Positions 15,259 through 34,938 of a DNA stretch of 64,000 nucleotides are shown piece by piece. The notes under the pieces are model-generated. The model had not been told where the DNA came from. It searched no databases and saw nothing but the letters and a program-made list of their open reading frames with translations. The position numbers and the translations under genes were made by a program. This DNA comes from Photobacterium profundum SS9. Lineage in GTDB: Bacteria; Pseudomonadota; Gammaproteobacteria; Enterobacterales; Vibrionaceae. Each line of letters starts with the position of its first letter. Position 1 is the first letter of the stretch. Location: the NCBI RefSeq assembly GCF_000196255.1, contig NC_006371.1, positions 2,163,595 to 2,227,594 on the forward strand, in the 5' to 3' direction.

Positions 15259-16688
15259 GTAACCGTTCACCAGCCCCCTATTGACACAAAAAAATGTGAT
15301 GGAGCGCACTTGATCCACATTTGGCTATTGAGTGATCCTCCCCACACGTCATGCTTACCAGTATGAAAAAGAAATTATCATTTAAAGAAGAACCACCGAC
15401 GGTAAATAGCCTCAATGAAGCTCAAGCTCTTATCCAGGAGCTATGGGAGAAATTGCGGCACTACGAAGACAAGCTCTCGACGAGTTCTAAAAACTCATCA
15501 AAGTCGCCATCATCTGATGGCCCAAAAGAGAGGGCTGAGCGAAAAAAGCTGAAAGCCCTCGTAGCGGCAATAAGATTGGAGCTCAACAAGGTCACGAGGG
15601 CAAACGGCGAAAACTGAGCAAACTCAAAAAGACAGATACTGTTGTACCCTGTATGCCCAGTTCACTGTGCCCTTGTTGTGGCGATAGTCATATCGCGATT
15701 AATCAAAAACCATCCTATCGGCATCAAGTGCATGAAATCCCTGAGCCAATTGTAAATATTACTGAATATCAAGTCTTTCATGGCTGGTGTCAAAATTGCC
15801 AGACTTCCGTTAAGGGGAAGCGGCCTCAAGATACCCCACAGGGAATAATGGGCCCTAACCTCATGAGCTACATTGCCCTGCTGGCTGGACAGTTTCATCT
15901 CAGCGTTCGTAAAATACAAGAATTACTCAAGCTGCAGTTAGGCACCTCCTTTTCCACGGGCGCTATCTCTGAGGCTCAAGGAAAAGTATCATCGATGCTT
16001 ACGCCTTTACATCAAGCCGTTCGAGACGCCATTCAAAAAGCGCCAATGGTTCATATTGATGAGACTTCTCACATCAGAAATGGTGAAAGCAGCCTACGCT
16101 GGTGTTGGCTGATGTCGAGTGATGATTGGGTCTATGAACGTGTTTTGTTTTCACGCTCAACCCACTCGGCAAAAGTGATGCTGAATGAAAAATTTGCTGG
16201 GGTTGTTATCTCCGATCAATGTGCCAGCTATAATTGGCTCAATCCTGAAAAACATCAATTTTGCTTAGGCCACCTAAAGCGAAATCTCCAACAAATGGCC
16301 GATTACAGTGGGGGTGGGTTAACCGCTTTTATTGGCAAACGACTGACTCTGCTTATCAATATGATTTTTCGCACTCAACATCGTTATGAAGAAGAAAACA
16401 TTTCAGCGGAGATATACTTTCGGAGAATGAAGTGATTGAGAAAGAGCTTAACGCGCCGGTTACGTGGAAGCGTGATCATGCGAAAAATCAGTTTTGGTAC
16501 AAGCTCCGATCGCGGTGATAAGTTTCGAGGCCGAATACACACTCTTGTTGAAACCTGCAAGAAACGAAGTATGTCACCATTTATCGCTCTTCAACAGATT
16601 GTCAATGCTGTCGTGAAAAAACAGCCATATCCTGACATCTTCAATCTTTGTTCAGGGTAGCAGTCAAGCTACTCTGGTGAACGCTTAC
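15259..16688 (+). mobile_element. Degenerate IS66-type element
   Basis: About 1430 bp. The ends begin GTAA as usual for IS66: left GTAACCGTTCACCAG and right (complement) GTAAGCGTTCACCAG, 14 of 15 bases alike. Flanking 8-mers (AGAAATTG and AACTTTGC) differ, so no target duplication survives. It inserted within a copy of the 160-bp repeat, and one flank was later lost or rearranged. Confidence 0.75.
15351..16660 (+). pseudogene. IS66-family transposase, frameshifted
   Basis: Three frames together give one transposase. Part 1 (15351-~15545) has the leucine-rich N-terminus and 'STSSKNSSKSPSSDGP'. Part 2, shifted near the A-run at 15541-15547, reads KSPRSGNKIGAQQGHEGKRR and the zinc-finger 'CPCCG...CQNC'. 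It then carries the DDE core with 'HIDETSHIRNG', 'VISDQCASYNWL' and 'FCLGHLKRNL', ending at 16435. Part 3 (from about 16436) restores the C-terminal 'GDKFRGRIHTLVETCKKR' region. With at least two frameshifts it is not functional. Confidence 0.82.
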
Positions 16689-16833
16689 AACTTTGCCACC
16701 CTTTTGCTTCTTGTAAACAAGCCGATTCACCTAAGTAATGTTTAACTAAAACCTGCAATAAAGAAAGTAAGGCTACATCCACAACACCTTGATCTTTCAA
16801 TTGTGAGAACAGATTTTCATGTAATAACGTCAT
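16669..16833 (-). CDS. Short open frame, possible remnant of a disrupted gene
   Basis: 54 codons from ATG 16833, preceded by AGGTGATTTA. The text MTLLHENLFSQLKDQGVVDVALLSLLQVLVKHYLGES looks like an amphipathic protein N-terminus. It then runs into the end of the IS66-type element, where it stops. It may be the start of a host gene cut by that element. No family was recognised and it could be chance. Confidence 0.25.
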   Translation of the reverse strand: MTLLHENLFSQLKDQGVVDVALLSLLQVLVKHYLGESACLQEAKGWQSCKRSPE

Positions 16834-22761: not shown

Positions 22762-22921
22762 CTTTATCTGGATAAGTAAATGGTCAGATAATTGCGTAGA
22801 GAAAATTGATAATAACAAGGAAGAAATTGAAGTAACTAGTGGTTCTAATTATAAAATTTCTAACGTAGTTATAAGCTATTTTAACCAGCAAGGATGATCA
22901 GATACTTGTCTAGATTGGTAT
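22762..22921 (+). repeat. Copy of the ~160-bp repeat family
   Basis: Matches the copy at 34727-34887 along its whole length, including 'ACTAGTGGTTCTAATTATAA' in the middle and a right end TAGATTGGTAT. The left end is slightly altered (TTTATCTGGATAAGTAAA). Confidence 0.8.
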
Positions 22922-22996
22922 AAGTACTAACTAATGCCTTTCGTTGTTGATGAGCGCTCTACAGTTCAAGTACGAATATACCTTCATCAATCACGG

Positions 22997-23306: not shown

Positions 23307-24071
23307 CTAAAAGCCAAGTACAATTTTAAGAATAACAAAGAAAGCCACAACCACAGCCATCATCAACATTACGCTCACAACGGGGCTAATGGTTGATGCG
23401 CATGGGTTGGTAATAACATCGGCAAGCTTTGGCTCATCATCGGTGCGATCTATCGGTGCTGTAACTAAATCAGCAATATGATGGTGGGCAGTCTCGATCG
23501 CTTCTTCACTTGAATCGATTACCTGCGCGCTGAACCAGTGTTCGGTATCGACCAGTTGTTCACCCACAACAGGCAACGACTTCATCAAAGTGCCGCATCG
23601 ACGGTCAATAACCGATACCATGATCTGGTTGTCTTTTTCACCCAGCACCCAACACGGAAAATAATCACCATCTAATTTCACTTTACTTGGATACGGGTAA
23701 TCAACTTGACTAACCGCCTGTAATAACCCTTCTTGTTCTGAAAATACAGACTGTAACCCTTGCAAGCCACGCTCTAACCAATAGCTCATATTATTGCGAT
23801 AAACAGACTGGCGTAATGGTGTAACCCGCGCAAATCCACGTGCAATATATTCAATAAATGCATCAGCGATCGGTTGTTTATCTGTCCACATATCTGGGGC
23901 ATTAATTGGCGCGACATCAAGGCGGTGATAAACCGTTCCATTAGCCGCAACCAACTTAATTTGATTACCACTACCTTCTGAACACTCGACACACCATGTA
24001 CTTGCAAGCTCTGCTAATACGACAGGGTACACGCGTTCAACAGTCGCCAAATAGTGCTGATAATTTGTCAT
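23307..24071 (-). CDS. Tail-anchored protein of unknown function
   Basis: 254 residues from ATG 24071 (GAGAGGG upstream). There is no signal peptide. Residues 1-215 are soluble and contain four cysteines, including 'STWCVECSEGSGNQ' and 'IDRRCGTLM'. Residues ~228-252 are one strongly hydrophobic helix (VVSVMLMMAVVVAFFVILKIVLGF) at the extreme C-terminus, so the protein would be held in the inner membrane with its bulk in the cytoplasm. It lies beside the trailer end of the CRISPR array, but nothing else ties it to defence. No family recognised. Confidence 0.7.
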   Translation of the reverse strand: MTNYQHYLATVERVYPVVLAELASTWCVECSEGSGNQIKLVAANGTVYHRLDVAPINAPDMWTDKQPIADAFIEYIARGFARVTPLRQSVYRNNMSYWLERGLQGLQSVFSEQEGLLQAVSQVDYPYPSKVKLDGDYFPCWVLGEKDNQIMVSVIDRRCGTLMKSLPVVGEQLVDTEHWFSAQVIDSSEEAIETAHHHIADLVTAPIDRTDDEPKLADVITNPCASTISPVVSVMLMMAVVVAFFVILKIVLGF

Positions 24072-24271: not shown

Positions 24272-25860
24272 TCTCTAAGCTGCCTGTGCGGCAGTGAACG
24301 GTGTTTTTCATAATGGCGGTGGAATACCAGATTTCTAAGCTGCCTGTGCGGCAGTGAACTCGCTCTTTCCGTGGGTTGGGTAATGGTGATTTTTCTAAGC
24401 TGCCTGTGCGGCAGTGAACGCGATCCAGAAACAGAGTTGCAATCATCTGAATTTCTAAGCTGCCTGTGCGGCAGTGAACCACATGAGCAACCAAGTCGGC
24501 GGTCAGATTCATTTCTAAGCTGCCTGTGCGGCAGTGAACAAATAGTTACCAAGGTGAATGAAATCATTGCATTTCTAAGCTGCCTGTGCGGCAGTGAACT
24601 TGAATATAGTCCGAAGTGGCTGTGTGTTTCATTTCTAAGCTGCCTGTGCGGCAGTGAACAACTAGTTAGGGCTTGGTTGCGGTATTCAGTATTTCTAAGC
24701 TGCCTGTGCGGCAGTGAACATCAGAGATGATCGCACCGGTAACAAGAGATATTTCTAAGCTGCCTGTGCGGCAGTGAACTCCCTCGCAATCTTAATACAG
24801 CAGTTCGAACATTTCTAAGCTGCCTGTGCGGCAGTGAACTCTTAAATCAAATTGTTCGGGTTTCGTTTACTTTTCTAAGCTGCCTGTGCGGCAGTGAACA
24901 TCAATTGAAATCGATTCGACTTCTTACCTTATTTTCTAAGCTGCCTGTGCGGCAGTGAACGTGCAGACGTAGCACCAGCATGCGCTACTTATTTTCTAAG
25001 CTGCCTGTGCGGCAGTGAACTAGTCGCGCATGATTGCGGTGACTGATTCTCATTTCTAAGCTGCCTGTGCGGCAGTGAACGTGTGAAGTAAGCAGCTTGT
25101 TCAGGACTAATATTTCTAAGCTGCCTGTGCGGCAGTGAACGCCACCTGCAAACCCCGCCCCCCCGGCTAGAATTTCTAAGCTGCCTGTGCGGCAGTGAAC
25201 GTTCCTGATTATGGTGAGCGCGCCTTTATTGATTTCTAAGCTGCCTGTGCGGCAGTGAACCTCGAGCTCAATGTGAAGCGGGTCTTACTGTTTTTCTAAG
25301 CTGCCTGTGCGGCAGTGAAGAAATTCACGTGCTTATGAACAACGGCAAAAAATTTCTAAGCTGCCTGTGCGGCAGTGAACAATGCTATACACTCTCTTTG
25401 GCTTTTTCTACATTTCTAAGCTGCCTGTGCGGCAGTGAACAATGATATAAATTGATATAGCCCGTTGTTACATTTCTAAGCTGCCTGTGCGGCAGTGAAC
25501 GTCATTTGCTGCGGTTATGCAGTCCCTCATAATTTCTAAGCTGCCTGTGCGGCAGTGAACAACCCCGCAGTGGTACTTTTAATCTCAGATAATTTCTAAG
25601 CTGCCTGTGCGGCAGTGAACTTGTAGCCGATACTGATCCCTGCCATATAAAATTTCTAAGCTGCCTGTGCGGCAGTGAACCTTGAATGATGCCATGTTCA
25701 TACCTGGCGTAATTTCTAAGCTGCCTGTGCGGCAGTGAACGCCAGTTCTACGCCTTCACGTACCGCATCAAATTTCTAAGCTGCCTGTGCGGCAGTGAAC
25801 ACGAACGCGTGGTTGATGAATCGTTTGATTTTTTTCTAAGCTGCCTGTGCGGCAGTGAAC
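24272..25860 (-). CRISPR. Type I-F CRISPR array, 27 repeats and 26 spacers
   Basis: The 28-nt repeat begins GTTCACTGCC on the minus strand, with the stem-loop CTGCCGCACAGGCAG and the ending CTTAGAAA. Spacers are 32 nt except one of 33 nt (24900-24932). Transcription runs leftward from the leader at 25861. The leader-distal repeat (24272-24299) has one changed base near its end, as expected for a terminal repeat. The repeat at 25293-25320 has its first base changed from G to C. All other repeats look identical and no duplicate spacer was noticed, which suggests an actively growing or recently active array. Confidence 0.97.
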
Positions 25861-25989
25861 AAGAGATTATCAGCATAAAAATAAGTTACAACAAGAAGTT
25901 AAGTAAAAATGTTCTTTTTTACCTATATTTCTCCTCCCGATGTAACTTATTGATTTTACTGACTGATTTTTAAAGAGCATTTTTTTTGG
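25861..25989 (-). promoter_or_regulatory. CRISPR leader
   Basis: 129-bp AT-rich segment between the cas6f stop and the first repeat, holding the array promoter and integration signals. On the minus strand it contains long A- and T-runs and GGGAGGAGAAA. Individual -35/-10 boxes and an IHF site are not certain. Confidence 0.75.
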
Positions 25990-26544
25990 TTAAAACCAAG
26001 GTATTGTTGCTGTGTTGCTTAGCCCATATGAATCAAACTCATCACTAACTGATGTCGCTTGTATATCACCAAACTCAAAGAATTTGCGATATACCTGCCC
26101 TGTTGAACTACTGAATAAATCTAGGTAAGGATTATCAAACCCTTGGCTTAGCATTTTTACCTTGTAACGTTTTTCACCGTCTTTATCTATACTGCCTCTC
26201 GCGATTAAACGTTTCAATTTTGCTTTACTTAAGTTACTGCGTTTAACGGAGATAACACGATATTGAACCTGATCTGGTACAACAGTAATTTCACCTACTT
26301 GACAATACCCTGCTAATGCCCCCAACCATTTGATACCTTGTAAGTCCTTTAATAAGCTAGCATTGCCATGAATACGAAATAGCCTACCGAGTTTCAAATT
26401 CATTTGCGGGAAACTAATGCCTATTTTATTTGTATTAAGTGTCGCTAATGCTTTATGAAACTTAGTAAATACTTTACTGCTGAGTTCCGCTTCACGCATT
26501 TCTGCATCGGGTTTTAATTGAATATCAACATATGAGTCCATCAT
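25990..26544 (-). CDS. cas6f: CRISPR endoribonuclease Cas6f (Csy4)
   Basis: 184 residues; AGGAGGG precedes two adjacent ATGs. Cuts the repeat hairpin and stays bound to the 3' handle of each crRNA. The N-terminal ferredoxin-like domain contains the catalytic His in 'VFTKFHKAL' (H30), matching H29 of Pseudomonas Csy4. '[17 protein letters not shown]' (~115-131) is the arginine-rich helix that reads the hairpin groove. The ending 'IPWF' and total length fit the family. Last gene of the cas operon, next to the array. Confidence 0.93.
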
Positions 26545-26550
26545 GCCCTC

Positions 26551-27561
26551 CTAAAGCCGAATATTAGAGACATAAGCGAGCCCTTTTTTGCCAAGGTAAA
26601 AACTTGACACGCCTGCATTTTCAATAAGTGTTTTGATTTCTTGCCCTTTGGTACGGTCTACATCAATACTAATTTCTAACTGTCCACTGGCTTTAGTCAT
26701 CATCGAAGTAACTTCACCCTGCCCTTTTATCTTTTCTTTTTTTATAAAAGGATTACCCCAAATCGTTTTTTTAGGTCCTGTAGTATAACGAGCCATAAAG
26801 TCTTTTTTAGTGAACCCTCTTTTAGAAATACCACTAATTCCGCCAGCTTTCGTTTTTGCCGTCGTCATATCAAACCTTACTTCTAAGCGGGCAAGCTGCA
26901 AATACAATGCAGAACAATAAATACTAATAGGTGTAATTAACCCTTTGTTATTTAAGTATTCAATGTCAGGAAAGTGCGTTTTTAGTACTTCAACAGTTTT
27001 TGCTAAATCGCCTTGATTTTCAAGCACCTTTTCTTTGTTTAGCAATTCAAGACGATTAATAATACTCAAAGGGTCAAGTTGAATCGTAACCTCGACTTGT
27101 TGATCATTGATAATAAAATCGCAAACCTGCATAAAATCTAAATTCAAAACACTCCAAAATTGCGACGAATATTCAGATGTAAATACAGAATCTGACACTT
27201 TTATCATTCCCGTAAATGAATTTTGATCTGTGCTGCCATTCATATTTCGAATAAATGTCATTTCATTTGTAAACTGTGGGTTATCTACAAAGCTGATTTT
27301 ATCTTCCAAATCTTCAAAATAGTAGACAGCTTCGTGCGTTTTACTTCGAGCTTGATAGAGCTTTCTTTGGTCGCCAATTAGGCGATTTAGTAACCCCATC
27401 ACTGTATCTAAGGTAGTTTCACGAACCTTAAAGTTACCTTCTTTTTTTAGGTTGGTCATCGATCCTAAAAATACTCTACCCTTTTTGGGTAATTGTTCGT
27501 TATTTGAACCATCTAAAAAAGAATTTCGCCAGCATGAGTCATATTCAATGGTTATTTTCAT
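26551..27561 (-). CDS. cas5fv: Type I-F2 Cascade subunit Cas5fv
   Basis: 336 residues. Starts [22 protein letters not shown] and ends '[19 protein letters not shown]', as in the Cas5 variant of I-Fv systems. In the Shewanella putrefaciens complex this subunit binds the crRNA 5' handle and contacts the PAM, replacing both Cas5f and the missing Cas8f large subunit. It sits 8 bp after cas7fv and its TAG overlaps the ribosome site of cas6f, so the three are co-transcribed. Assignment rests on order, size and recognised N-terminal text; Cas5 and Cas7 folds are hard to prove by eye. Confidence 0.85.
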
Positions 27562-27569
27562 TTAACCCC

Positions 27570-28517
27570 CTACTTAACGTAAAAATACTGAGCATATTGA
27601 GATTGTGGCTCAGTTACTATTTCTGACTCATCGCGCTTAATACGCATCATTTTATGACTGTCGTTATAGTCCACTGTTATTTCATCAACATACATATAAC
27701 CCTTTGCTTGGCGAATACTTAAGTCGGCAATGCGTGATAAAGTCTGTTCAACCAATGCTTTTACTGCGTCATCATTAAGTAATATGCCACATTCACCTTC
27801 TTCAAAAATGGTGCCCTTGCGCACATAGTTGCTATGGAAAGCGGCTACTGGGTTGAGTGATGGGTTAAGCGTTTTGATAAAGCTTTGTACAGCCTCCGCC
27901 ACTTCTTCGCCCTGACCTTCTTTTATTACCATGCTGGCTCGATCGAATTTTTTATCTAACGAAATAAATTGCAACTGTTCAATACTGATTGAGCCATAAG
28001 AAATATATTCCGTATCGCCAAAAGTTGTTTTAGAAAAGAAAGAAGAACTGTCACGTTCACCTGCTTGACCAAATTGTTCAAAATTACCATTTCCTAATTG
28101 ATCAACAAAATCTTCAATTAATAAAGGACTGGTTCTTTTGCATTGGCTTGACGGCACAACATAACCACGTATCAACCCAGTAATAGATGCGAGTACTTTT
28201 TCTAAATTTTTATCAGCCGCAAAATGCAAATCAAATGCTTGAGCTTTAAATAAATGATGACGAATACAATTTTGGCTAATATATAAAGGCGTTTTTTTGA
28301 AATCTATATCCGTAGCTTCTTTCTTATACTTATAGCCCGTTTCCTCTTTTATTTTGCCCGTTAAATTCGTATAACCACGAAGTTTAGGTAAAGTATGATT
28401 ATCAACGGTTTTACCATTGTCACCCGTGAGAGTCGTCGGCCCATTCCAGTTCACCACACCATGACCTAATGCTTTAATTTTAAAATCAACACTTTTAATT
28501 CCCGTTACTTTTTGCAT
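27570..28517 (-). CDS. cas7fv: Type I-F2 Cascade backbone subunit Cas7fv
   Basis: 315 residues. A RAMP-like protein directly after cas2-3, the position of cas7fv in I-F2 loci. It contains a long positively charged N-terminal half ([30 protein letters not shown]) and '[12 protein letters not shown]', likely crRNA-facing loops. Multiple copies coat the spacer part of the crRNA. Only 3 bp separate it from cas2-3, so translation is probably coupled. No csy1 (cas8f) or csy2-like gene exists in the locus. Confidence 0.85.
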
Positions 28518-28520
28518 GAT

Positions 28521-31445
28521 TTATTCCTCATCTTCTGTTGTTTGATTAATTGACACTGCGCCTATGGCTTGTTTATCGCAGACAGCGTAATAAATGGCAT
28601 GTGGGTGACGTGAGCTTTCGCCCCCCACTTGTAGTAAATCGTTAGTGGTATAACTCAAATAAATCGGTGATTCTGGATCGCGCGCTTCGTTTAATAGAAT
28701 CTTGTCTGTATGCGCTGTTTTAACTCCTGAGATATTGTGATGCTTTTTAAACATATGAGCCAATAGGTCTTTATCACTTTTGCCGTAACCTAAAATGGCA
28801 TTGGTGGCATAAGTCATATTGTCGATATTACTGTCATCATCCAGCGGTATTGAGTAAGCATATTCTTCCAGATACTTTGGTTCAGCATTGCTTAAATCAA
28901 CCACTGCTAATTGTACAAAGCGGTTATCACCGCGGAGCGAGCCTTTACTAATTTTGCTGCGCTTTTTATCTTTGTTTTTCTTTGGCGGCACTGTGATTGG
29001 ATCAATCACTTTCTCGTTAATCTTTTTCACGCTTTCTTTGAGTGCTGCGACTAAATCACTTTCAATAAAACGTTTGGTTGATTCTCTGTGATGAAACTCA
29101 TAATAGAGCTGATAGATTTCTGGCAATGTGAAGATTTTATCTTCAAGCGCGTTCAGTAAACATTGATACCAAGCCCGTACCGAACTCAATACATACATTT
29201 TTGAAAGAAAACGTGATGCTGGGCTATTACCTTTAGGTTCTGCAATTGATTTTGGAACCGCTAAAGCGTAGGTATTAAAAACGTTGTTTTCACCAAAGCG
29301 ATCTAACCGGCCTAAGCGCTGTAAGCAATCTTCCGCATTGGTGATTTCTGCCACCATATAATCACAACTAATATTTAGTGATGCTTGCACAATAGGGCCA
29401 CTGCGAAGCACTTCATATTTGCGTGTGCCACCACGCTTATAGGCTTCATACACTTCGCCAAACCATTTACGCTTATCACTTTTTATAAATTTAGAATGTA
29501 AAAGTACTGCATTTTCATCATGTTGATTTGCTATAAAGCTATTTTGTGCGGTGAGTGCCATATTACTAATCACAAAGGCACAGTCATTTTGAGGGACAAA
29601 AAGCGGATTGTCTTTACCGAGAACTGAATCGTCGAATACTTTGAAATCAAGCTGATACTGGCTTTGATTAAACGACGGCATCACGTTTATGTCGTCTTGA
29701 TGAATGCCAAGCAAGTCTTCAACAAACACATAATGCGGCGTAGCCGACACCAATAACGTATTAGCGTGTTGCTGTTGCATTTTTTTAGCCGCTATCAATT
29801 CGGCAAACAGTAAATTAAATGCGGGCATATTTACATATTCGTGAAACTCATCAAACACCACGCTCACATTTAAAAAATCAATCAGTGTATTGGCTTTGGT
29901 GTGACTTATCACCGACCCAATAATTTGATCAATCGTGGTAATAACAATGTCGCCTGAAAAGTTTTTATCTTCTGGTATTGGATTATCCCATTGATTATGA
30001 AACTTAAACTCACCGGTATTAATTTCTATGGTGGCATTTGGCAAGTATTGTTCTGACGTTAATTCGTAAAATAGCCCTTGGCACACCTGTACTCGTGGGC
30101 AAACCCAAATTATGCGCTTAGCTCCTTGTAACTTTGCCCATTCCAATGCAATTTTGGTTTTACCACACCCCGCAGCTCCCGCTAATACAGCGACATCTTC
30201 TGCGGTTGTAAGCTGCTGTGCGATCTCACTTTGTTTAATGCTGCGCTCACTATTGGGGAAGAAAGAGCTTAAGCAGGTTTCTATCTGGCTACTCAGCGTT
30301 GTTTCAACTTCAAGCAGTTCAGCGACTTTTTCGTCTAAGCTCCGTTCAAAAATCACTTCATGGAGATCGGCTGCACTGAGCGAAGAAATTTTCCTATCAG
30401 CCGTTATCAAACAGGCACGAGCGATGTTATTACGGGCATTACTTTTTATGCTACCGCTATTCGCTATAACAGATTCTTCTAATTCATATTCTTTATACGT
30501 TGGTAGCGCTGGCGCATCGGGCAAACTACTTTCTAGCTCAGTAGATACTTCAGCAAGAAAGGCTTTTTCGAGAGTGCTATTACTTAGTTCTCGATACTTC
30601 TTATCGATTCCCACAACTTGCTTGAGGAGTAATTGAGCTTGACCAACCATATCGCCTAATGAAACATCTTTTTGTTTTGCTATCAATTTCTTCGAGATAT
30701 CTTTATAGGTAGTAAAACTGTTTTTATCTTTACGAAATGGTTTTGCATGATGCCAGTAAACAGCATGTTTAATAGAACGCTTATTTTTCTTAGGAATAGC
30801 CGTTAGCTCTGTTCCATCAAGCAGCTGATAGAGTAATAGTGATACCTCATTATGACGAGGGTGTTTTTCAAAACTAAACTTGGCATCATCTATATGTTGG
30901 CCATCATCAGCAACATAGTTTTTCTTTTTTGGGTTCGTGACCCACTGTTGAAATTTAGGGTCGATTTTTCCTAAATCATGCAAACATCCCGCAATAAAAT
31001 TCACTATCGAAAATTGAGGGTTTTCGGGTAATAATTTTCGATGTAGTTGCTCGGCTAAATAGCCCACCGCAAATAAATGCTCAGCTAATGGCTGTAATTG
31101 AGTATTGGCATACAGTACACCTTGCTTTGGTTTGTCGGTGGCCACATCCATAAATACCTCTTTTCCGGTGGAATTAACAGGCACTATGCCTTGTTGATTA
31201 AATTTCAGTTTATTGCCTACTAACCACAACAATTGACTGCGTGAACGACTTCTAATCCAATGGCAACTGACTGCGGTGCTTTTACTGGCGGTTTGACGCA
31301 GCATTTTCTTTACGGTTAATAAACCATCTTCGGTGATGATGGTTTGCCATGTGTTATCCCCAATACGATTAGCGAACGCATCCAATACTCGGCGTGTTTT
31401 TTTCAGTGCATTCTTTTCACATTGGGATACAAAGGTGACCATCAT
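28521..31445 (-). CDS. cas2-3: Cas2-3 fusion: integration subunit plus HD nuclease-helicase
   Basis: 974 residues. Residues ~1-95 are a Cas2 domain ([30 protein letters not shown]). HD nuclease motif H156-D157 stands in '[13 protein letters not shown]', with further histidines 'KHPRHNE' and 'WHHAKP'. Helicase motifs: Walker A GAAGCGKT (423-430), DEFH (532-535), SAT (567-569) and QRLGRLDR (709-716). All catalytic motifs look intact. It degrades target DNA after Cascade recruitment and joins Cas1 in spacer acquisition, the arrangement peculiar to type I-F. Its ATG overlaps the cas1 stop by four bases. Confidence 0.95.
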
Positions 31446-32437
31446 GATGATTTTACCTTCTTGTTTTGTGGTGTTTTTTTATGATAAGACAACGCCACTT
31501 CTTTCACGGTATCAAACATAAAATCCAACACTTTATGGTCGGTAAACGCTTGCAATACTTGCTGTCTGAACTCTTGCTCTGTGTCGTTATCTTTGGCACA
31601 AATAAACGCCCAAGGCAGTACAATCGTGTCTTTTATGAGGTCAGCCACATCAAACACCAGCGCTCCTCTGCGTGTCTTTCCATGCATAACAGCAAAACCA
31701 TGAGGAATACCTAACACCCATAACGTACTTGCGGCTAACCCGTAAGCGAGGTAGTTACCGTGATTTAAGAAATCATTGGCTTTGTCTGTCGATTGGTGCT
31801 GTCGCTTAAAATCTTGCAGCTGAACCGCATTGGACGCAAATTTATAGAGATATTTAGTGAGTTGCGCTTCTGTGAGCAATAAATCACTTTGCTTGGTGGC
31901 TTCTTCGGTGCGTTGTTCAAATCGCTCGAAGGCTTGTAAAAGCCCTGAATCTTTAATATTGAAGCCTTCTTGTGTTAACTCACGGTCTTTTGACCAGATC
32001 TTTTGTAGAAACGTAAGGCGTGCTTGTTGAAAGGTTTTTGCGACTTCGAGGCGTTTTTGATCATCAAACCAAAATGACATCCAGCCCTGTAGGTATTCTG
32101 TTGGGCGATATTCACTTTGCGGGGTAAACCATTCTATTGGTTGCTCGGCATCGTTTGCCATGTATAACGGGGTGCCTCCGCCGCCACTAAAGCCAACTAA
32201 CACTCCGGCTTGAGCTAGCATTCTCATGGCTGCTTGAGTAATAGAGGTTCCGTTACCTAATAACAACACAGTGGTGTTGGCGATGGGGATATTAAAATAT
32301 TGGTTTTCATTCTTAGTTTCGGTTAAGTACAATACTCGACCGTCTTTTTGCATCACTCGGCAATATTCTAGATAGAACATATTCGCACGCTTTGAATGCA
32401 ATATACTTTTGAGATCAGAAGAAGATAAATTGTCCAT
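31442..32437 (-). CDS. cas1: CRISPR integrase Cas1 (type I-F)
   Basis: 331 residues. The N-terminal beta domain (to ~100) includes '[37 protein letters not shown]', typical of I-F Cas1. The metal-binding residues are E190 ([13 protein letters not shown]), H252 (GFAVMHGK) and D263/D266 ([10 protein letters not shown]). All are present, so integration should work. First gene of the operon. The start lies only 41 bp from the target repeat of the IS66 element, which has separated it from older upstream DNA. Confidence 0.95.
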
Positions 32438-32485
32438 GTGCTAGCCTTTAAAATGCTTCTTTAGACATGTTAGAGCCCTCGACTG

Positions 32486-34250
32486 GTAACTTCTCAATAA
32501 GTCGGGGCATAAGCGAAGAGTGATCCTGATAGTGTTTTTAAAATTAATGTTAGGATCTCTAAGATCGGCTTGATTGATCCTTTCAAACCTTCAAAATAGT
32601 AGCCTCTAACCACGTAGAGCCTTTTGTCTCAATGAAAATTAATCTCCCAGACATTCCAGAGTCAGAGCAAACCCCTTTGGTAAAAGGCTTAATTGGGATC
32701 ATTGAGCAGCTTTCCGATACGGTTGAGCGCCAACAAGAAGAAATCACCCTCCTTAAAGACGAGATCAACGTACTAAAAGGGCAGAAAAAACGGCCCAAGT
32801 TCAAGCCGAGTAAACTCGACACAAATACCGATGAAAAGTCAGACCAAGGCTCGACTGATAACAAACGGTCCGGCTCTACCAAGCGTAGCAAAAATCAAAC
32901 GCTGACCATTCATCAGGATAACATTGTCCAGCCAGAACAACCTTTACCTATCGGGGCACGATTCAAGGGCTACCGAGATTTTGTCGTCCAAGAGCTAGAG
33001 ATACAGTCGTGCAATGTACGTTATCGCTTAGCTTGCTATCTATTACCTGATGGTTCGACGGTTACCGCTACCTTGCCTAATGGACTAGCAGGCCAACACT
33101 TTGGCACTCGACTAAGAAGCTACATCCTCTATCAGTATCATCAATGTCAGGTCACTCAGCCTCTGTTGTTGGAACAACTTAGAGAATGGGGTATCGATAT
33201 TTCCAGTGGCCAATTAAATCGCTTATTGACCGAAAATCATGATGATTTGCATGAAGAAAAAGCCGAACTTCTGGCTGCAGGCCTGCAAAGCACTGGCTAT
33301 ATCACAACAGATGACACCGGAGCTAGGCATCAGGGCAAGAACGGTTTTGTCACCCACATAGGCAATGAGTGGTTTGCTTGGTTTCAAAGTTCAGACCGAA
33401 AAAATCGGATCAACTTCCTGTCACTCCTTCGGGCTGGAAACAAGGGTTATCAGGTGAACACCTGCGCACTAAACTATATGGCGACAAATAAACTCCCTGC
33501 TCCCCAGTTAGCATTGTTAGCAAACACACCAGTGACCAACTTTGGATGTGAGGAGGAATGGTCTGCTCATCTAGTTCAGCTGGGTATTGTCGTAAAAAGG
33601 CATATTCAAATAGCGACTGAAGGTGCCCTATTGGGTTGCGCGTCAGAGAATGAAGCTTTGGGTAAACTCGCTGTGATCAGTGATGGTGCTGGACAGTTTA
33701 AGGTTCTACAACATGGTTTGTGCTGGGTACATGCGGAGCGGTTGGTCCACAAGCTTATTCCGTTGAATGAGGGACATCGAGAAGACATCGCACAAGTACG
33801 TGATGAGATTTGGTCGTTCTACAAGGAGCTGAAAGAATACAAAAAACAGCCTTGCGACACGAAGAAATCAGCCCTGTCGAAGGAGTTCGATCGGCTATTT
33901 ACTCAGAAAACCCGCTATGAGCTCCTTAATCAGCAACTAAAGCGGTTAAACAAATTAAAATCAAGCTTATTGCTGGTATTGGAACGACCAGAAATTCCAA
34001 TCCATACAAATGGAAGCGAAAATGATCTAAGGGAGCAGGTCAAGCGGCGCAAAGTCAGTGGAGGTACTCGTAGTGATCTTGGCCGACAATGCCGAGATAC
34101 CTTTTCCAGCCTGAAAAAAACGTGCCGAAAATTAGGGGTTTCCTTCTGGAAATATCTCAACGACCGAATTTCTCAAAGTAATGTAATCCCATCTTTAGGC
34201 TCTCTGGTGCTCCAGAAAGCCCACCCTGCCTCGGCTTATTGAGAAGTTAC
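32486..34250 (+). mobile_element. Intact IS66-family element, single-gene (ISBst12-like) type
   Basis: 1765 bp with ends starting GTAACTTCTCAATAAG; the terminal repeat matches 22 of 24 bases. A perfect 8-bp target duplication CTCGACTG lies at 32478-32485 and 34251-34258, as expected for IS66. Only a TnpC-type gene is present, no TnpA/TnpB, which fits the ISBst12 subgroup. Inserted between cas1 and its former upstream region. Confidence 0.93.
32632..34242 (+). CDS. IS66-family transposase (TnpC)
   Basis: 536 residues. N-terminal leucine-rich coil (IIEQLSDTVERQQEEITLLKDEINVLKGQ), then a basic linker. The DDE core has its first Asp in 'YITTDDTGARHQGKNG', the second in 'LAVISDGAGQFKVLQHGLCWVHAERL', and a C-terminal 'IHTNGSENDLREQVKRRKVSGGTRSDLGRQCRDTF' carrying the catalytic Glu. 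The complete frame ends inside the right terminal repeat. Transcribed divergently from cas1. Confidence 0.92.
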   Translation: MKINLPDIPESEQTPLVKGLIGIIEQLSDTVERQQEEITLLKDEINVLKGQKKRPKFKPSKLDTNTDEKSDQGSTDNKRSGSTKRSKNQTLTIHQDNIVQPEQPLPIGARFKGYRDFVVQELEIQSCNVRYRLACYLLPDGSTVTATLPNGLAGQHFGTRLRSYILYQYHQCQVTQPLLLEQLREWGIDISSGQLNRLLTENHDDLHEEKAELLAAGLQSTGYITTDDTGARHQGKNGFVTHIGNEWFAWFQSSDRKNRINFLSLLRAGNKGYQVNTCALNYMATNKLPAPQLALLANTPVTNFGCEEEWSAHLVQLGIVVKRHIQIATEGALLGCASENEALGKLAVISDGAGQFKVLQHGLCWVHAERLVHKLIPLNEGHREDIAQVRDEIWSFYKELKEYKKQPCDTKKSALSKEFDRLFTQKTRYELLNQQLKRLNKLKSSLLLVLERPEIPIHTNGSENDLREQVKRRKVSGGTRSDLGRQCRDTFSSLKKTCRKLGVSFWKYLNDRISQSNVIPSLGSLVLQKAHPASAY

Positions 34251-34302
34251 CTCGACTGGAGCTAAGGCACTGTAAGTTAATCATTTAACGACATTCAATA
34301 TA

Positions 34303-34563
34303 TACCCAAGTTACCTCAAGATGCTCGTTTCAGCGAGAATTTGTTGCGCTCTAGGCAAGGCACTTATTTATAGACCTAGTCGTTCTACGTTGGAAATAAG
34401 TAACACCGCATAGAGCTCAACAAAACTCGCCCTTCGGGAGTGATTCAGCGTATCTACTTCTTCGTCAAATGTATTTGAAAGGGAATCCATTCCTACACAC
34501 ATTTTCCTTGAATTAAACACGCTGAGATCACTCTGAATCCTGCATCTTGAGGTAGCTTGGGTA
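34303..34563 (-). repeat. MITE copy 2 (261 bp, inverted orientation)
   Basis: Same element as at 16847, 41831 and 59368 but in the opposite direction. TA lies on both flanks (34301-34302, 34564-34565). It is 45 bp beyond the IS66 target repeat, so the original region upstream of cas1 also carried this element. Confidence 0.9.
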
Positions 34564-34726
34564 TATACACTTCGTTGGCACTGCCATCAACAGTTTCTCG
34601 ATAATTTCAGAGCCGTTTTACCTTCACATGTCATCCCGATTAGAATAACGGGTTTAGGCTGGTTGATAACATGGATTGGTGAGATCTTGGACGCAATGCA
34701 CCCTTATGCTAATGGCGAGAACAGTT

Positions 34727-34887
34727 ATACCAATCTGGATAAGTAAGTGGTCATAAATTTGCGCAGGAAAAATAGGTAAGAACAAGACAAAAATTGAAAT
34801 AACTAGTGGTTCTAATTATAAAATTTCTAACGCTGTTATTATCGATTTTAACCAGCAAGAATGAGCAGATACTTATTTAGGTTGGTA
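34727..34887 (+). repeat. Full copy of the ~160-bp repeat family
   Basis: 161 bp. Left end ATACCAATCTGGATAAGTA; complement of the right end ATACCAACCTAAATAAGTA, 16 of 19 alike. No coding capacity. Probably a second MITE family. Confidence 0.82.
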
Positions 34888-34938
34888 TTAGTGCGTAGAT
34901 TATGTGGGGCTCTGCCAGTGCTGCGATTAAGCACCAGA

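Follow-up and report, generated by a model that had tools for sequence, protein, structure and literature searches.

The type I-F variant of CRISPR-Cas (I-F2 or I-Fv) was described from Photobacterium profundum in 2011. In the available part of that paper its components are Cas1, Cas2/Cas3, Cas6f and two unassigned proteins, PBPRB1993 and PBPRB1992, with no cas8; PBPRB1993 was likened to Csy2 (Cas5) and PBPRB1992 to Csy3 (Cas7) (PMC3150331; this and the other papers are cited from excerpts). A 2015 paper traces the first description of the variant to PBPRB1995-PBPRB1991, and for the I-Fv system of Shewanella putrefaciens it demonstrates interference, crRNA production and a GG PAM (PMC4605320). 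PDB entry 5O6U is the S. putrefaciens I-Fv complex, in which the helical domain of Cas5fv is reported to take the place of the large subunit and residue Q113 to distort the first base pair of the PAM (PMC6546366). According to the excerpt of a 2025 paper, the S. putrefaciens system has been used to make deletions in Escherichia coli (PMC12714560). RNA-seq of SS9 derivatives is reported to place 27 putative CRISPR-DR4 elements, listed with the transcripts from repeated regions, on chromosome 2 of P. profundum, between PBPRB1989 and PBPRB1991 (PMC3505737).

The locus analysed here lies within a window of 64,000 nucleotides, the whole stretch of DNA examined. We are highly confident that it is a complete type I-F2 (I-Fv) CRISPR-Cas system, almost certainly P. 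profundum SS9 PBPRB1991-PBPRB1995, where the variant was first described. Set against that locus it has the same gene content, the same location on chromosome 2 and 27 CRISPR-DR4 repeats, which is the published count, and no difference was found. If the locus numbering runs through the operon, the gene order here makes PBPRB1993 cas7fv and PBPRB1992 cas5fv. The locus was therefore read correctly from its letters but is almost certainly the one reported in 2011, and the finding is already known because the locus, the S. putrefaciens mechanism and its use in editing have all been published.

The I-Fv system of S. putrefaciens CN-32 (Sputcn32_1819-1823; PDB 5o6u, 5o7h and 9g44) shares the five genes and the repeat type with the P. 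profundum locus, and its proteins are closely similar; both have a GG PAM and no cas8f. The two differ in array size (26 spacers here, 81 in CN-32) and in the IS66-type element that lies upstream of cas1 in P. profundum. The CN-32 locus is also flanked by a dinG homologue, reported as dispensable for interference in the excerpt available (PMC4605320), whereas both Helicase_C_2 (DinG-type) matches of P. profundum, in open reading frames of 692 and 620 residues, fall on another replicon. In Vibrio cholerae (RC385 and TM 11079-80) the I-Fv system is described with the same cas1, cas3, cas7fv, cas5fv and cas6f and is placed inside genomic island VPI-6. The TM 11079-80 copy has its cas3 interrupted by a transposase (PMC6360697, in part); the P. 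profundum locus, by contrast, has five open genes, with the inserted element lying upstream of cas1.

The five cas genes are consecutive on the minus strand and span 25990-32437; all are open, their motifs are intact and signs of decay are absent. This agrees with the sequence-only reading, which had listed cas1, cas2-3, cas7fv, cas5fv and cas6f as the only cas genes at the locus. The product of cas1 (31442-32437) matches PADLOC Cas1fv at 602.2 bits and TIGR03637 at 493.8 bits, and residues 190, 252 and 263 are E, H and D. The cas2-3 fusion (28521-31445) encodes a Cas2 domain, which matches the Cas2 domain of I-F Cas3 (PF21384) over residues 1-79, an HD nuclease and a helicase; it matches chain 9g44_A and carries HDLGK at 156, GCGKT at 426, DEFH at 532, SATP at 567 and QRLGR at 709. 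The E/H/D residues of Cas1 and the HD and helicase motif residues of Cas2-3 are catalytic, and all those predicted to be intact were found at the expected residues. The remaining genes are cas7fv (27570-28517), which encodes the backbone subunit and matches chain 5o6u_C, cas5fv (26551-27561), identified by its PADLOC, Pfam and PDB chain matches and encoding the helical domain, and cas6f or csy4 (25990-26544), the crRNA-processing endoribonuclease, matched by TIGR02563 (151.7 bits), PF09618 (194.1 bits) and chain 5o6u_B.

Profile searches of the five proteins, which were expected to return I-F2 families, did so in PADLOC, NCBIfam and Pfam. The top PADLOC models are Cas1fv, Cas3fv, Cas5fv and Cas6f, and for the backbone protein Cas7f followed by Cas7fv. 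NCBIfam places the backbone protein in the Cas7fv equivalog NF040577 (505.6 bits; cut-off 200) and gives zero matches for Cas5fv. Pfam finds Cas5fv_helical (PF20158), the domain that replaces the large subunit, at residues 110-266 of Cas5fv (240.1 bits; cut-off 25). Among solved structures, sequence comparison puts chains of 5o6u, 5o7h and 9g44 closest to Cas7fv, Cas5fv, Cas6f and Cas2-3; the match of Cas5fv to 5o6u_F spans all 336 residues, and the protein is 83% identical to an entry named S. putrefaciens Cas5fv (P0008). Cas1 is closest to 5fcl, 9p11, 3god and 8flj, which we take to be type I-F Cas1 proteins. Residue Q113 of Cas5fv is invariant in 22/22 aligned sequences, the P. profundum one included, picked among 120 listed of 2280 found. 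Cas7fv itself occurs in three of 52 genomes of the genus, counting that of P. profundum.

Canonical I-F1 systems (Csy1-4) share Cas1, the Cas2-3 fusion, Cas6f, the repeat, the CC/GG PAM and an A/T bias at the first spacer position, but also have Csy1/Cas8f, Csy2 and Csy3, none of which was found in the P. profundum locus. An I-F1 system that recently lost cas8f, its Csy2 and Csy3 having been misnamed, could look similar, and the PADLOC models do lend this some colour: PDLC01393 'Cas7f' outscores 'Cas7fv' on the backbone protein (677.4 against 623.4 bits) and PDLC01392 'Cas5f' also matches Cas5fv. We take these labels to be models broad enough to cover the I-Fv variant. Neither RAMP protein matches a Csy2 or Csy3 family in NCBIfam or Pfam, an assignment that would have undone the I-F2 reading and that only the PADLOC Cas5f and Cas7f labels approach. 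The loss of cas8f from an I-F1 system is contradicted by the Cas7fv equivalog and the Cas5fv helical domain, both far over cut-off, and by the I-Fv proteins being the best solved relatives of Cas7fv and Cas5fv; in addition, the same five-gene set is reported, in partial sources, from V. cholerae and S. oncorhynchi. We consider such an origin extremely improbable and retain the I-F2 assignment. Transposon-associated type I-F3 systems lack cas1 and cas2-3 and have a Tn7-like tniQ, whereas here cas1 and cas2-3 are present.

The absence of a large subunit extends beyond the locus. Csy1/Cas8f (PF09611) has 0 matches in the whole 6,403,280-base genome, with a positive E. coli control, so that neither beside the locus, as had been claimed, nor elsewhere in the genome does a cas8f match appear. 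Csy4 has a single match genome-wide, the cas6f of the I-F2 locus, and the I-F repeat, allowing up to three mismatches, is present only within the I-F2 array. The Cas1 search returned one further Cas1, in two pieces, on an 80,033-base contig (a plasmid), where 8/8 scanned proteins of an operon match type I-E families, Cas8e included. This plasmid type I-E system (L215 5354-17319), which has the full set of eight cas genes, is separate and is the only other CRISPR-Cas system found in the genome. Its presence means that the I-F2 locus could in principle borrow the Cas8e large subunit; however, the I-E operon has its own array of 65 repeats, and that repeat differs from the I-F2 one. E. coli BL21 lacks I-E cas genes. 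The S. putrefaciens I-Fv system is reported to make deletions in E. coli BL21-AI (PMC12714560, in part), and the characterised I-Fv complex is described without any Cas8 in the text available (PMC6546366, PMC12714560). We give the borrowing of Cas8e almost no credence.

The CRISPR array (24272-25860, minus strand, leader-proximal end at 25860) has 27 repeats of 28 nt and 26 spacers. Rfam CRISPR-DR4 gives 27 matches (45.6-50.1 bits). The repeats had been called nearly identical, and 25 of the 27 are fully so; the two others, at 25293-25320 and at the leader-distal end (24272-24299), have one change each. Twenty-five spacers are 32 nt long and one is 33 nt; a 28-nt I-F repeat with 32-nt spacers matches the lengths seen in other I-F2 loci. 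The leader (25861-25989, minus strand), between cas6f and the first repeat, contains a GCTCTTTAAAAA-like and a TGTTGTAACTTATTTTTA-like block, and both recur with variation in eight aligned I-F2 relatives. The same alignment shows common TGTTGTAACTT-like sequence, also variable, adjoining the first repeat. The leader thus resembles those of relatives, in keeping with its apparently normal look in the sequence-only reading. The array is adjoined on its other side by a gene (23307-24071) for a 254-residue protein with a hydrophobic C-terminus and no NCBIfam, Pfam or PHROGs match.

Isolated repeats were seen in some other loci. In one relative (L176, about 16180-16730) a mini-array upstream of cas1 has two repeats that are both split, at an identical position, by a sequence of 183 nt; pieces of this sequence are scattered through the genome of that relative. 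At L207 (8292) a solitary I-F repeat, decayed in part, has neighbouring sequence that resembles the surroundings of the L176 mini-array and is perhaps the remnant of a lost CRISPR locus. In two related genomes I-F-like repeats lie apart from any regular array: L208 has a single one (8002), and the one in L209 (7992) has a second repeat-like stretch just upstream, which is perhaps an array remnant.

Every spacer in the P. profundum array begins with T (20/26) or A (6/26), with a chance of 1.3e-7 given the spacers' inner composition. Across I-F2 arrays, 65/66 exceed their own inner composition for A/T at position 1, and A/T makes up 78.3% of first bases (n=2655 spacers) against 57.6% inside; some I-F2 loci hold more than one array. 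Counts were made on arrays of at least eight spacers, with spacers of 31-33 nt, duplicate spacers being removed for I-F2 and kept for I-F1. Local context alone is insufficient to account for 78% A/T, because across 80 fetched I-F2 loci, with their arrays counted in, CC is followed by A/T in only 59% of cases. The bias is not a new finding: it is present in 16/16 I-F1 arrays from the same bacterial family (73.5%, n=589 spacers; 20 fetched regions of 29 Csy1 matches in 26/150 genomes) and is reported for type I-F in the excerpt available (PMC5059440). Since the rule is already in print for type I-F, what is seen here extends it to I-F2 arrays, and the 26/26 A/T starts are an extreme case of it.

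A spacer search had been suggested as a route to the PAM, and it succeeded for one spacer in 26. A search of 50,697 phage records with the array yielded a single hit, between spacer 25 and Vibrio phage K404 (E = 0.04); the two agree at 29/32 positions, and on the crRNA-sense strand the protospacer is immediately preceded by CC, which reads GG on the complementary strand. A pattern derived from this match was found in a single viral contig, L195, which agrees with spacer 25 at 28/32 positions and likewise has CC directly upstream. The CC/GG PAM is thus present in 2/2 viral matches of spacer 25, the second of which is not independent of the first. Both protospacers encode RTFRGLGNGD, and spacer 25 would encode RSFRGLGNGD. 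The K404 protospacer lies within a 1129-residue protein for which PHROGs returns two families without an assigned function and a weak match to a tail fibre family. The first 20 nt of six other spacers have no exact match in the viral contigs. None of 50 candidate stretches on these contigs encodes Cas5fv.

Other apparent targets for the most part resemble arrays or repeats. Searched with the array, 56 plasmid records match; where a record matches in many pieces, the pattern suggests another I-F-type array, and the positions of the single-piece rows (H55-H58) coincide with repeats, though a plasmid protospacer may still be among these records. Of the genomes of the genus 13/52 match, with at most seven candidates scored per genome, but the strong matches align at 67-72%, as is usual for other arrays, and several of the short ones are located on repeats. 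A weak match of spacer 2 in G018 (E = 0.008) was not recovered in the fetched sequence with up to seven substitutions. There is no indication of self-targeting, the best match elsewhere in the organism's own genome having E = 0.195.

By analogy with S. putrefaciens, Cas6f would cut the array transcript into crRNAs and copies of Cas7fv would coat the spacer portion of each. Cas5fv would bind the 5' tag and its helical domain would read the GG PAM, replacing Cas8f. Cas2-3 would then be recruited to degrade the target, and Cas1 with Cas2-3 would be expected to insert new spacers.

Several repeated elements surround the CRISPR region. An intergenic repeat of about 155-160 nt has copies on either side (22766-22925 and 34733-34892). 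These were considered as att sites of a mobile island, an idea rejected as the sequence is dispersed, with 41 genome matches at 71-100% identity. An element of 269 bp (34299-34567), bounded by inverted arms of 40 nt, has seven further genome matches of at least 90% over nearly its whole length and is perhaps a miniature transposable element.

Outside the CRISPR system, 48 bp upstream of the cas1 start, lies an IS66-type element of 1765 bp with terminal inverted repeats (32486-34250, plus strand). It is flanked by an 8-bp target duplication, CTCGACTG, at 32478-32485 and 34251-34258, read off the flanking letters with the element limits set as the core common to the other genomic copies. Its one transposase open reading frame matches PF03050 above cut-off (56.9 against 23.1 bits) and NF033517 below it (108.5 against 180 bits). 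Elsewhere in the genome the near-complete copies at 99% identity or more number at least 32, and three more are shorter or more diverged; these are lower bounds, with 61 matches and 40/343 candidates scored. The element has therefore been amplified recently.

This insertion bears on whether the system is expressed. In 58 relatives (of 66 loci with a Cas1 start, among 82 searched) the median distance between cas1 and the nearest upstream open reading frame of at least 80 residues is 250 bp, and three of the 58 have a gap no longer than 48 bp, so the native promoter may now lie beyond the IS66-type element. The machinery could then be intact and the system silent, with the operon parted from its native promoter and the array still transcribed from its own leader. 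The recent amplification of the element, its 8-bp duplication and the short gap point this way, as does a sigma-70-like consensus scan of 32300-34320 that found no minus-strand site. That scan is weak, however, returning one site on the other strand where 3.2 are expected by chance. Insertion elements can bear outward promoters, the remaining 48 bp could still house one, and the cas genes show no decay. The RNA-seq study assigned transcripts to the array region, which would fit an array still driven by its leader, but in the excerpt available the assignment is called ambiguous owing to the repeats (PMC3505737). We regard silencing as a possibility to be taken seriously, though not the favoured outcome. 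The sequence-only reading had suggested a working system, which the element 48 bp upstream of cas1 makes less certain.

As a finding the locus carries little weight, as the subtype, its structure, PAM reading, genome editing with the S. putrefaciens system and the locus itself (in 2011) are all published. Its use is as a check that raw sequence is enough to assign subtypes correctly. For the organism, a reading that we hold to be less likely than not is that in the founding locus of I-F2 the machinery is intact while the cas operon has been re-wired or silenced by the IS66-type insertion, leaving immunity dormant or under the control of the element. A locus called intact may still be without its promoter.
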